A stretch of DNA of 64,000 nt from Aggregatibacter segnis ATCC 33393 (lineage in GTDB: Bacteria; Pseudomonadota; Gammaproteobacteria; Enterobacterales; Pasteurellaceae), in NCBI RefSeq assembly GCF_000185305.1, contig NZ_GL622200.1, positions 1,662,330 through 1,726,329 on the forward strand. Direction: 5' to 3'. Made by a program: the position numbers and the translations under genes. A model generated the notes under the pieces. It had not been told where the DNA came from and ran no database searches. It saw only the letters and a program-made list of their open reading frames with translations. Positions within the stretch are counted from its first letter, which is position 1, and each line of letters begins with the position of its first letter. Below, piece after piece: positions 39,958 through 44,622 of this stretch.

Positions 39958-41574
39958 TTACGCTTTAGGACCTGCAGCAATCAATGCTTTACCTTCAGCA
40001 TTTGTTGCATATTTTTCGAAGTTCTTCACGAAACGACCAGCAAGATCTTTCGCTTTTGCTTCCCATTGTGCTTTGTCTGCGTAAGTGTCACGCGGATCTA
40101 AGATAGCTGGGTCAACACCTGGTAAAGCGTTAGGAATTGCCAAATTGAAGATTGGTAATTCGCCCATTTCAGCTTTTTCGATAGAACCATCTAAGATCGC
40201 GTCGATAATACCGCGAGTATCTTTAATAGAGATACGTTTACCTGTACCGTTCCAACCGGTGTTCACTAAGTAAGCTTCCGCACCTACCGCTTGCATACGT
40301 TTCACTAACACTTCCGCATACTGAGTTGGGTGTAAAGTTAAGAACGCTGCACCAAAACAAGCTGAGAAAGTTGGGGTTGGTTCGGTAATACCACGTTCTG
40401 TACCCGCTAATTTTGCAGTAAAGCCAGATAAGAAGTAGTATTTGGTTTGTTCCGGAGTTAATTTAGAAACCGGTGGCAACACGCCGAATGCATCTGCAGT
40501 TAAGAAAATTACTTTCGTTGCGTGGCCTGCACGGGAAACCGGTTTAACGATGTTATCGATGTGATAAATCGGGTAGGACACGCGAGTATTTTCTGTTTTG
40601 GAACCGTCATCAAAGTCAACAGAACCATCTGCACGCACAACCACGTTTTCTAATAACGCATCACGACGGATTGCGCGATAAATATCCGGTTCGTTTTCTT
40701 CAGAAAGGTGAATAGTTTTCGCATAGCAGCCACCTTCAAAGTTGAAGATACCCACATCATCCCAACCGTGTTCATCGTCACCGATTAATTCACGTTTTGG
40801 ATCGGTAGAAAGGGTGGTTTTACCGGTACCGGATAAGCCGAAGAATACAGCCACATCGCCATCTTTACCTACGTTAGCGGAACAGTGCATTGCACCAACA
40901 CCTTTAAGCGGTAGGAAGTAGTTCATCATGGAGAACATACCTTTCTTCATTTCACCGCCGTACCAAGTACCGCCGATTAATTGAACACGTTCAGTCAAGT
41001 TAAATGCAACGAAGTTCTCAGAGTTCAAACCTTGTTCTTTCCAGTTCGGGTTGGTGCATTTAGAACCATTCATTACTACGAAACCTGGTTTGAAATTTTT
41101 CAATTCAGCTTCTGTCGGACGAATAAACATGTTTTTCACGAAATGTGCTTGCCATGCCACTTCAGTCACGATACGTACCGCAATGCGGTCTTGTTCGCTA
41201 GCACCACAGAAACCATCAACCACAAATAGACGTTTACCGGAAAGTTGTTTAGTCACAATGCCTTTCAAGCTTGCCCAAGTTTCTTGGGTCATTGGTTTAT
41301 TATCGTTTTTCGCTGCATCGGAAGTCCACCAAACAGTGTCTTTTGTGGTGTCATCCAACACAATATATTTATCTTTAGGTGAACGACCGGTAAAGATGCC
41401 GGTATCAACAGCTACGGCGCCGGTTGTGGTCAACGTACCTTTTTCAAAACCTTCCAAGCCTGGTTTAGTTTCTTCTTCAAATAATTGTTCATAACTTGGG
41501 TTATAAACAACCTCTTTGACATCATGAATACCAAGCGCTTCAAGTTCTTTAATAACTTTACTTAAGTCAGTCAT
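39958..41574 (-). CDS. pckA: Phosphoenolpyruvate carboxykinase (ATP)
   Basis: Converts oxaloacetate and ATP to phosphoenolpyruvate; in Pasteurellaceae it often runs in the reverse, CO2-fixing direction toward succinate. 538 aa, normal length. The kinase loop [14 protein letters not shown] (about 246-259), the metal and substrate motif [22 protein letters not shown] (first residues near 266), and HCSANVG near 230 are present. GAGGTAATCT precedes the ATG. A CRP-like site lies about 80 bases upstream, in keeping with gluconeogenic control. Confidence 0.98.
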
Positions 41575-41840: not shown

Positions 41841-42485
41841 ATGAAATTACTCAAATTATTTTTACTTGCTACATTACTTTATATTCCCGGTGTACAAGCT
41901 GCCGAAGCAACGGATTTGAACATCAAATACAGCTCCAATTATCTCATGCCTGCTTATGTGCATTTTCACTCCGATGGCTTTGAATATACGATCAATGCCA
42001 ACATCAATATCCCCTTGTACAAAATTCAATTTATCTCGAAAGGTGCGCAAAGTAGCAATGTTTTTAACATGTTCAGCTACAAAGACACGCGTAATGACAA
42101 ACCTTATGCGGAAGCAAAAATTGCCAATCGAAAAATTGAGTACGGCAAAATAAAAAATGGACTCAAAACTGAAGAGTTAACCTTACCAACCTATGATTTA
42201 TTTACGGTAGCCTTCCAGCTAAGTTATTACGGCAAGTTGCCAAATAGCTTCCAAATCACGAATGGTAAAAAGCTTTATCCGATGGAAAACGTAGTGCTAA
42301 ACACAACGAAAAAACAAGTGAAATACAACAAACAAGAGGTGACTGAAATCACCTATCAATTTAAAACTGGTGGCAAAGATATTGTGGTAAAAAAACACGA
42401 AGGGGAAAAATTCCCGCGCTTTATTTCCTACAGTCGGGATGGTGATGAATACGAGCTTACTTTTAGCGATTTTGTCAAAAATTAA
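41841..42485 (+). CDS. Secreted DUF3108-like protein of unknown function
   Basis: I do not know a function. 214 aa; signal peptide of about 20 residues ending VQA, so it should be periplasmic. The rest is beta-rich with the DUF3108 pattern: an early IKYSSNYLMPAYVHFHSDGF segment, KGAQSSNVFNMFSYKDTR, a middle segment ELTLPTYDLFTVAFQLSYYG (about 111-130), and a C-terminal GEKFPRFISYSRDGDEYELTFSDF. It stands alone, divergent from pckA, and is followed by a strong terminator. Ribosome site AAGGAA lies seven bases before the ATG. Confidence 0.75.
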   Translation: MKLLKLFLLATLLYIPGVQAAEATDLNIKYSSNYLMPAYVHFHSDGFEYTINANINIPLYKIQFISKGAQSSNVFNMFSYKDTRNDKPYAEAKIANRKIEYGKIKNGLKTEELTLPTYDLFTVAFQLSYYGKLPNSFQITNGKKLYPMENVVLNTTKKQVKYNKQEVTEITYQFKTGGKDIVVKKHEGEKFPRFISYSRDGDEYELTFSDFVKN

Positions 42486-42498
42486 TCTTTTCATGAAA

Positions 42499-42530
42499 AA
42501 ATAAAGCCACCAAATAGGTGGCTTTATTAT
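42499..42530. terminator. Terminator after the DUF3108-like gene
   Basis: AATAAAGCCACC / AGGTGGCTTTATT stem of about 12 bp with a 3-4 nt loop, immediately followed by the first 36-bp repeat. Confidence 0.85.
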
Positions 42531-42534
42531 TGTG

Positions 42535-42570
42535 CGGTCTAAAAAACATATGAATTTTAGACCGCACTTT
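42535..42570. repeat. 36-bp direct repeat, copy 1 (USS-containing hairpin)
   Basis: Identical over 36 bases to 43429-43464. Internally it is an inverted repeat: CGGTCTAAAA ... TTTTAGACCG with the centre AACATATGAA, and its right arm is a full reverse uptake signal ACCGCACTT. The left extension GTG makes a near-complete forward signal. It lies just beyond the stop codon of the YD-type gene and can terminate it. Confidence 0.9.
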
Positions 42571-42573
42571 AAG

Positions 42574-43395
42574 CTAATAATATTCGTATGAATTTTCAAC
42601 AATAGTACTGCTAGGATTATTACGATTATCAAACTCTTCAATTCTCACTACATTACCATAGTTATCCAACGTGTTTTTCCAGATTTTTACGGAAGATACG
42701 CTACCATCACCAAATCCATAAGGAGGAAAATCTTCAAATTGGATTTTATTTCCATTGGTATCAAAAGTCGTTACTTCTCGCCCACCATATGCAAATTGCG
42801 TTTGTTCAACTAATTTACCATCAACATATTTGTTGACATATTTAAAAGGTTCGCCACCAAAAATCTCATTTCGAGTTTCCAGAATATTTCCATGCTCATC
42901 ATAATGATGGCTATATTTGTTCATCCCATTTTCAAGTTTTTCGCAACCTTCTTCACAAGACTCATCTTCTGTTTTTTCAACGAGTAACAACCCATTTTTG
43001 TCATAGGTATTTTCAGATACGATCCGTGTTGGGGAGCCTTCCATTTTTAATTTCTGAATAACTGTCAACGTCCCATCAGGATTAGTGCGATAGTGATATT
43101 CATTAAAAACATTATCACCCGTCTCAAAAGATTTAACCAATCGCCCTTGTTCATCATAAACAAAGTGTAATACCTGTGTAAAACGCCCTAAAATCTCTTG
43201 TCTAGTTTTAAATCCCTGAGGATTAAAGTAGGTAATCTCATGTTCATCAACTTTAGAGCTATCACGATCAATCAATTTTCTTTCCCATTTTTTAACTGCC
43301 CCTTTTAGATTTAATAAGGCTAAATCAGTTTTTGGGGTGGCAAAAAGTACGGTGGAAAACAGGGTTAAAAGGCATCCTAATAAAATGTGTCGCAT
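42574..43395 (-). CDS. Secreted YD-repeat-like protein of unknown function
   Basis: 273 aa with a signal peptide (about 1-19, cleaved near LFA). The mature part carries six loosely spaced YD/RHS-like motifs: YFNPQG at 56-61, YDEQG at 80, YDKNG at 131, YDEHG at 165, FDTNG at 211, LDNYG at 243. Each begins a short beta-hairpin followed by polar or charged residues. Cys147 and Cys151 could form a disulfide in a Glu-rich loop. I placed the start at 43395; the frame reaches 43461, but that extension lies in the flanking repeat. The gene is a monocistron bracketed by identical 36-bp repeats. It is too small for an RHS toxin, and the function is unknown. Confidence 0.8.
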   Translation of the reverse strand: MRHILLGCLLTLFSTVLFATPKTDLALLNLKGAVKKWERKLIDRDSSKVDEHEITYFNPQGFKTRQEILGRFTQVLHFVYDEQGRLVKSFETGDNVFNEYHYRTNPDGTLTVIQKLKMEGSPTRIVSENTYDKNGLLLVEKTEDESCEEGCEKLENGMNKYSHHYDEHGNILETRNEIFGGEPFKYVNKYVDGKLVEQTQFAYGGREVTTFDTNGNKIQFEDFPPYGFGDGSVSSVKIWKNTLDNYGNVVRIEEFDNRNNPSSTIVENSYEYY

Positions 43396-43428
43396 AGAAG
43401 ATCCGTTAGATAAATAACTAAAAAAGTA

Positions 43429-43464
43429 CGGTCTAAAAAACATATGAATTTTAGACCGCACTTT
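43429..43464. repeat. 36-bp direct repeat, copy 2 (USS-containing hairpin)
   Basis: Identical over 36 bases to 42535-42570. Here it lies between the YD-type gene and mnmA and can act as the mnmA terminator on the minus strand. The left flank reads AAGTACGG, an uptake signal with one change. Confidence 0.9.
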
Positions 43465-43470
43465 TCTGTT

Positions 43471-44622
43471 CTATTTTAGCTGTTGCTCAATGATACCACC
43501 ACCAAGGCAAACTTCATCCAAATAGAAGACGGCTGATTGCCCCGGCGTGACCGCAATTTGCGGCTCATCAAAAATGACTTTGATACTTTCGTCGTCAATC
43601 GGCTCAATCGTACAAGGCACATCCGTTTGGCGATAACGGGTTTTCACGGTACAACGCAACGGTTCACGAATCGGTTGACGATCGACCCAATGCAATTGTT
43701 GTGCGATTAAACCGGTAGAAAGTAACGCTGAGTGATCATGCCCCTGTGCCACAATTAACTCGTTATTGACAAGATCTTTTTCCACCACATACCAAGCTTC
43801 TTCACTAGCCCCCTTCACGCCACCAATGCCCAAGCCTTTGCGTTGGCCCAATGTGTGATACATCAAACCATCGTGGCGACCAATAATGTCACCCTCTACC
43901 GTGCGAATGTTGCCCGGTTGCGCCGGCAAGTAACGGGCTAAGAAATCCTTAAATTTACGCTCACCAATAAAACAAATGCCGGTAGAATCTTTTTTCTTCG
44001 CCGTGATCAAACCTAAATCTTCGGCAATCGCACGTACAATCGGTTTTTCAATGTCGCCAACAGGAAACAGACTTTGTCCCACTTGTTTTTTACTTAAGGT
44101 GTAAAGGAAATAACTTTGGTCTTTGTTGGCATCCAAACCGCGTAATAATTGTGCGTTATCATCTGCTCCTCGGCGGCGTACATAATGTCCGGTAGCGATA
44201 TAGTTCGCGCCTAAATCTTCTGCGGCATATTCTAAAAAGGCTTTAAATTTAATTTCTTTGTTACACAGAATATCCGGATTCGGAGTACGACCAGCCTTGT
44301 ATTCGTTAAGGAAATGTTCAAATACATTATCCCAATACTCTGCCGCAAAATTGATTTTATGCAGCTTAATGCCAAGCTTGTCGCACACAGCTTGAGCGTC
44401 AGCTAAGTCCGCAGCAGCTGTACAATAATCGGTGTCGTCATCCTCTTCCCAATTCTTCATAAACAAGCCTTCCACTTGGTAGCCTTGTTGTTGCAGAATA
44501 AAAGCAGACACAGAGGAATCTACCCCGCCTGACATGCCACAAATGACTTTTTTCGTGCCATTTTCGGCAAGTTGTTCAGCAGAGAGTTTCGGGAAATGTT
44601 TTTCGTAGGTTTGTGATTTCAT
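43471..44622 (-). CDS. mnmA: tRNA-specific 2-thiouridylase MnmA
   Basis: Installs sulfur at C2 of the wobble uridine in tRNA-Lys, -Glu and -Gln, taking sulfur from the IscS-Tus relay. 383 aa. PP-loop [12 protein letters not shown] (about 28-39), first catalytic Cys in [14 protein letters not shown] (near 68, disulfide or nucleophile pair) and the second in [11 protein letters not shown] (near 215) are intact; C-terminal barrel after about 280. Monocistronic, with a USS hairpin as terminator. Confidence 0.97.

Follow-up and report, generated by a model that had tools for sequence, protein, structure and literature searches.

A YD-repeat gene between duplicated uptake-signal terminator hairpins after mnmA in Aggregatibacter: a probable single-gene cassette

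Natural transformation is usually viewed as a swap of homologous alleles, and the addition of genes without mobility enzymes is less clear. The locus described here raises this question. It lies in a window of 64,000 nucleotides (the whole stretch of DNA that was analysed) from an Aggregatibacter genome, referred to as G000, in which a single gene for a predicted exported YD-repeat protein stands between two identical repeats made from uptake signals. Is this gene a cassette that comes and goes by way of its repeats, and do repeats of this kind receive other genes elsewhere?

The repeat pair and the gene between its copies

The 36-bp sequence CGGTCTAAAAAACATATGAATTTTAGACCGCACTTT is identical at positions 42535-42570 and 43429-43464 of the window, with a start-to-start distance of 894 bp. 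It belongs to a 39-bp block (42532-42570 and 43426-43464) in which 38 of 39 bases are identical, the mismatch being GTGCGG versus GTACGG. The initial annotation had claimed that the 36 bp occur on either side of one gene and had noticed no other copy, and this was confirmed, as no third copy was found at up to 3 mismatches in the whole of G000 (2.01 Mb). Each repeat is an inverted pair of uptake signals (dUSS), and the two copies are predicted to fold into hairpins of -21.5 and -25 kcal/mol, with z-scores of about -8 to -9; none of the shuffled sequences folded as well as either copy. A looser hairpin pattern matched just these two places in the window and gave 0 matches in 100 shuffles. Each copy had also been described as a hairpin with a full uptake signal. 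The hairpin and one full USS arm per copy (AAAGTGCGGT, minus strand) were found as described; the other arm is degenerate (TTGTGCGGT or AAGTACGGT).

Both hairpins are terminator-like and directly follow a stop codon. The left, mnmA-proximal copy (43426..43464, minus strand) comes after mnmA (43471..44622, minus strand), the conserved upstream flank, and lies upstream of the YD gene; it is the terminator of mnmA. The right copy (42532..42570, minus strand) comes after the YD gene. It is abutted by an ordinary, non-USS terminator hairpin (42497..42531), which is also found in alleles that lack the YD gene and belongs to the conserved downstream flank, a convergent gene for a 214-aa predicted exported protein (41841..42485, plus strand). 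No Pfam or NCBIfam match was obtained for the 214-aa protein. The outer flank is pckA (39958..41574, minus strand). The pckA gene is collinear in alleles with and without the YD gene.

The gene between the repeats (42574..43395, minus strand, ATG start) encodes 273 amino acids with a signal-peptide-like N-terminus. A longer frame with a GTG start, reaching 43461, was rejected because it runs into the hairpin. The protein resembles RHS/YD-repeat proteins through weak repeat matches: NCBIfam TIGR01643 scored 21.6 bits against a cut-off of 15.8, and Pfam RHS_repeat fell just below its cut-off for this protein and above it for the H. sputorum homologue. The predicted structure, a model of low confidence (pLDDT 66.5), is an all-strand fold whose best PDB matches, at low TM-scores, include RHS-repeat proteins. 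Unlike those proteins, it is just 273 aa long and exported-like, with no toxin domain seen. The gene has a GC content of 34.7%, compared to 42.1% for the window, and its dN/dS of roughly 0.13-0.33 in the compared pairs suggests that it is kept as a protein. It is the only open reading frame of substance between the repeats, and no transposase or integrase was found there. An origin from a phage or plasmid was considered and rejected, as searches for the gene among phage and plasmid records gave no match.

There is nothing unusual in the hairpin as such, since the exact dUSS pattern has 113 matches in G000. Paired-USS terminators after stop codons are a known feature of the Pasteurellaceae, as is an extended USS consensus (PMC1852404). 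It could therefore be argued that neighbouring dUSS look alike without a common origin, through chance or selection on an AT-rich extended consensus, parts of which other dUSS in G000 do share. Among the matches listed in three genomes (100 of the 113 in G000, most of those in G001 and some of those in G002), interiors at least 85% alike were seen in 4 of 5 dUSS pairs less than 1 kb apart and in 38 of 4408 distant pairs (Fisher 3.5e-8, with pairs that are not fully independent and 1 of the 4 in a cdiA-like cluster). The window pair is the only one with identical interiors among the matches listed, and these interiors equal the single copy of a sister species exactly. Chance repeats were rejected from this near and far comparison and from the genome-wide search, which found no other dUSS of G000 within 3 mismatches of the 36 bp. 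We consider this explanation extremely improbable.

Filled and empty alleles after mnmA

The comparison genomes, one per species, covered 140 Pasteurellaceae species, 9 of them of the genus. The initial annotation had stated that a gene carried by all relatives, with repeats absent or different in most of them, would speak against a cassette. The YD gene was instead present in only 6 of the 140 species, including 3 of the 9 genus genomes, and the repeats track lineage. The genes mnmA and the 214-aa gene with pckA are conserved in G000 and in G003 to G007, and three of these six genomes carry the YD gene between them.

An allele with one repeat and no gene, which had been proposed as a check on the cassette reading, was found in G007, which by its mnmA is the nearest relative among the genomes compared. 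In this genome, mnmA is followed by one hairpin with the same 22-nt interior as in G000, then by the 214-aa gene and pckA, with no YD gene. Similar pairs of alleles were found independently. A. kilianii (G005) has the YD gene between two identical copies of another hairpin, and its sister G004 lacks the gene and carries a single copy of this hairpin. G152, of the H. parainfluenzae group, has the YD gene at mnmA flanked by two near-identical hairpins whose sequence is different again; five genomes of this group (G153, G154, G156, G158 and G159) lack the gene and have one copy of a related hairpin. G006 carries the gene with a right hairpin that resembles the single hairpin of its relative G003, in which the gene is absent; the left hairpin is unlike it, with an interior 86% like the G000 type and equally like its own right copy inverted.

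When filled and empty alleles were aligned (G000 with G007, G005 with G004, G006 with G003, and G152 with G156 and G158), the flank alignments overlapped by 41-46 bp, and this overlap is the hairpin. Compared with an empty mnmA allele, a filled one has in addition the YD gene and a duplicated stretch of 41-46 bp coincident with the hairpin. The interiors are alike at 22 of 22 bases between both copies of G000 and G007, between both copies of G005 and G004, and between the left copy of G152 and G156. Across the groups of G000, G005 and G152, interior identity is 59-68%, compared to 95-100% between resident-type copies of filled alleles and related empty alleles. Since the interiors match within a lineage and differ across groups, it is the gene that comes and goes, and the repeat stays with the lineage. 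In G006 and in G155, a further genome described below, the two hairpins are not alike, and a duplication of the resident copy is therefore not universal.

These alleles bear on a second explanation, in which the flanks drive the movement. The gene would be replaced as in a minimal mobile element, through the shared mnmA and downstream gene, and the hairpins would merely be the terminators of two neighbouring genes. The homology of mnmA and its neighbours across species and the unlike hairpins of G006 and G155 are in agreement with this. Such replacement would be expected to bring in donor hairpins, yet both copies in G000 and in G005 match those of the recipient lineage.

As a side observation, G153 has two full mnmA genes 12 kb apart on the same strand (C1:176437-177576 and 188459-189601), one ending in a dUSS hairpin and the other in an ordinary terminator.

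Movement of the gene and the same architecture at other loci

Divergence at synonymous sites indicates that the YD gene has moved between lineages. Between G000 and G005, dS is 0.23 for the YD gene, compared to 0.34 for pckA, 0.69 for mnmA and 2.35 for the 214-aa gene. The gene is less diverged than all three flanking genes, which transfer predicts and vertical inheritance together with the flanks does not. The values to the H. parainfluenzae group are 0.84-0.95 for the YD gene versus 1.8-2.3 for mnmA, and are near saturation.

These values weigh on an ancestral origin, in which an old ancestor already had the gene with two hairpins behind mnmA, local gene conversion kept the copies alike, and recombination between the hairpins deleted the gene in most lineages. 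Consistent with such a history, the gene has the same place behind mnmA in both Aggregatibacter and the H. parainfluenzae group, the single-hairpin alleles are clean, and the repeats agree inside each genome but not from one lineage to another, as concerted evolution would lead one to expect. Vertical descent does not predict a cargo dS below that of every flanking gene tested, and presence in 6 of 140 species would need very many losses. We regard ancestral loss as unlikely. The flank-driven explanation also has difficulty with these data, as the cargo has diverged far less between G000 and G005 than have mnmA and the 214-aa gene. For the YD gene itself, gain and loss are both possible.

Two genomes carry the gene away from the mnmA site. 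In G155 (H. parainfluenzae C2004000280; C11, L071:3746-5353), the YD gene and two hairpins are ectopic and are accompanied by a 5'-truncated piece of mnmA (235 aa open), with the intact mnmA on another contig. The locus adjoins an acyl-CoA dehydrogenase gene that is absent from the other ten genomes of its genus. It was considered as an insertion at a known site and set aside, because that gene is missing in the ten relatives and an empty site could not be named. The locus looks like a fragment brought in with part of its former flank, and its displaced YD gene counts in favour of a mobile cassette; the mnmA piece beside the gene is also a point in favour of flank-driven movement. In H. sputorum (G061), the YD gene lies elsewhere in the genome, with a hairpin of the other USS dialect on one side only.

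At mnmA, no cargo other than the YD gene was seen. The proposed check for other genes between such repeats came out in favour at other loci, where other cargo was found between duplicated resident dUSS. In the glnS-ykgJ interval of G002 (C11, L073:1788-2540), a HigB/HigA toxin-antitoxin pair lies between two near-identical dUSS, so that the order is glnS, dUSS, higBA, dUSS, ykgJ, with 47 bp duplicated relative to G001. At the empty sites of G001, G004, G005 and G006, a single dUSS precedes the ykgJ-like gene. In G003 (C17, L081:3204-4110), this site is occupied by another single gene, named phzF-like by eye, and only the left of the two hairpins is present. Downstream of clpX, a RelE-like/HTH toxin-antitoxin pair lies between two dUSS in G001 (C6, L075:1687-2522) and G002 (L089). 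G003 to G007 have one dUSS and no pair here, and the filled alleles have a 44-bp duplication. The left hairpin interior of G001 at clpX is inverted relative to the right. Finally, an EmaA-type trimeric autotransporter (adhesin) gene beside a fadD-like gene in G001 (C9, L077:1793-8090) lies between dUSS whose interiors agree in 20 of 21 bases. No empty site for it was found among the genomes compared; a single hairpin in G002:C2 was rejected as a candidate because the hairpin alone matched, making it a different locus.

Because the cargo at glnS and clpX is confined to one species or one species pair, gain is the simpler reading at least for the toxin-antitoxin cassettes, and this is a further difficulty for ancestral loss. 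The recurrence of the same duplication at unrelated loci with unrelated cargo also counts against flank-driven replacement at mnmA, an explanation that we find improbable. When 30 higB loci from across the family were examined, only that of G002 was found to lie between Haemophilus-type dUSS, so higB cargo does not generally travel with dUSS.

The nearly constant length of the duplicated stretch (41-47 bp) and its coincidence with the hairpin could also be the mark of an enzyme, namely a recombinase or hairpin-recognizing transposase that acts in trans, inserts genes at dUSS and duplicates its target. No recombinase or transposase gene was found in the cassettes read, and apart from the USS no sequence is obviously common to the ends of their cargos. 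The hairpins of some cassettes are unlike or single, a state that an enzyme, on duplicating its target, would not have produced at the time of insertion. We give enzymatic insertion hardly any credence.

Two other loci with clustered hairpins were recorded. In G000 itself, the filamentous-haemagglutinin/cdiA-like modules at C1:920627-932750 (L069), a stretch that is partly masked, are interspersed with 51-nt dUSS hairpins, of which four within 12 kb are near-identical. In G055, long hairpins of the other USS dialect (CAAGCGGT; L112:114, 1133 and 2085) surround a higB-like gene; two of these hairpins, separated by 1 kb, are near-identical.

Proposed route of gain and loss and comparison with known systems

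The explanation that we consider probable is that the YD gene is a single-gene, transformation-borne cassette docked at the dUSS terminator of mnmA, and that recombination between such hairpins inserts and removes it. The earlier reading as a small cassette without a transposase is supported by the single-hairpin empty alleles and by the other cargo between duplicated dUSS elsewhere. We infer the uptake by transformation, the recombination route and the deletion through the repeats. DNA with the YD gene and USS at its ends would enter by natural transformation. Homology sufficient for recombination between each end of the insert and the resident dUSS would come from the USS arms and the AT-rich interior, and the outcome would be an inserted gene plus one extra copy of the resident hairpin. 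The copies could stay resident-like through mismatch correction toward the resident sequence or through later conversion between the copies. A donor hairpin that survived would give unlike copies, as in G006 and G155. Two direct copies would then permit precise deletion back to one hairpin. The same process may take place at other dUSS terminators, where the cargo seen to date consists mostly of small toxin-antitoxin pairs.

Several observations count against this explanation. The left and right hairpins are unlike in G006 and G155, the left interior is inverted at clpX in G001, the hairpin is one-sided in H. sputorum and at glnS in G003, and just 1 of the 30 higB loci lies between Haemophilus-type dUSS. 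In addition, about 40 bp of unbroken homology is short for RecA-dependent exchange. Neither ancestral loss nor flank-driven replacement explains the low divergence of the cargo together with recipient-type hairpins on both sides as well as dUSS recombination does, and the three may act together.

Because sister species without the gene carry the same hairpin once, the terminator hairpins appear, from the alleles compared, to be reusable docking sites for genes without their own transposase. A broader proposal, that paired-USS terminators are general docking sites in the Pasteurellaceae at which unrelated accessory genes, often toxin-antitoxin genes, are inserted by recombination with the resident dUSS duplicated each time, seems to us to have an even chance of being correct. 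If it is, uptake signals would both bring DNA in and supply the homology that places non-homologous genes. There would also be a simple sequence rule for spotting recently gained Pasteurellaceae genes, and an easily testable route of gain and loss.

The closest precedent is the tna cluster of H. influenzae, reportedly described in 1998 (J Bacteriol 180:107-118, listed among the references of PMC3928620), in which accessory genes are said to lie at a USS-containing intergenic sequence, between 43-bp direct repeats of it, and to vary among strains. The YD gene similarly lies between direct repeats of a USS-containing sequence (39 bp, 38 of 39 identical), and genomes without the gene have a single copy. 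By this analogy, the YD cassette is best regarded as a single-gene relative of a tna-type insertion. They differ in that tna is a three-kilobase operon at one site in one species, whereas here a single gene has lineage-following repeats in several species, and further loci carry toxin-antitoxin and possibly adhesin cargo.

The minimal mobile elements of Neisseria (Saunders and Snyder 2002) are defined as whole-gene cassettes between two conserved genes that vary among genomes, are incorporated by homologous recombination and have no mobility gene (PMC3898611). The locus after mnmA is likewise a variable whole-gene cassette without mobility genes between conserved mnmA and the 214-aa gene with pckA. 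Classical minimal mobile elements recombine through the flanking genes, whereas the junctions here are a dUSS hairpin that is present once when the site is empty and twice when it is filled. The cargo is less diverged than the flanks and recipient-type hairpins lie on both sides, which suggests that exchange occurred at the hairpins rather than in the flanking genes.

The hairpins resemble the paired-USS Rho-independent terminators of the Pasteurellaceae (PMC1852404) in that both consist of paired, inverted USS, follow stop codons and have the potential to act as terminators. That study treats dUSS as terminators, and the words 'horizontal' and 'inserted' are absent from its text. Judged against the open-licence literature, in which the comparison was made, two features are apparently new: that one site is reused across several species, with hairpins matched to the lineage, and that the arrangement recurs at other terminators with toxin-antitoxin cargo. 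An earlier description may exist. In Neisseria, recent insertions are reported to be without uptake sequences (PMC2397512); here, in contrast, an uptake-signal hairpin stands at both ends of the insert.
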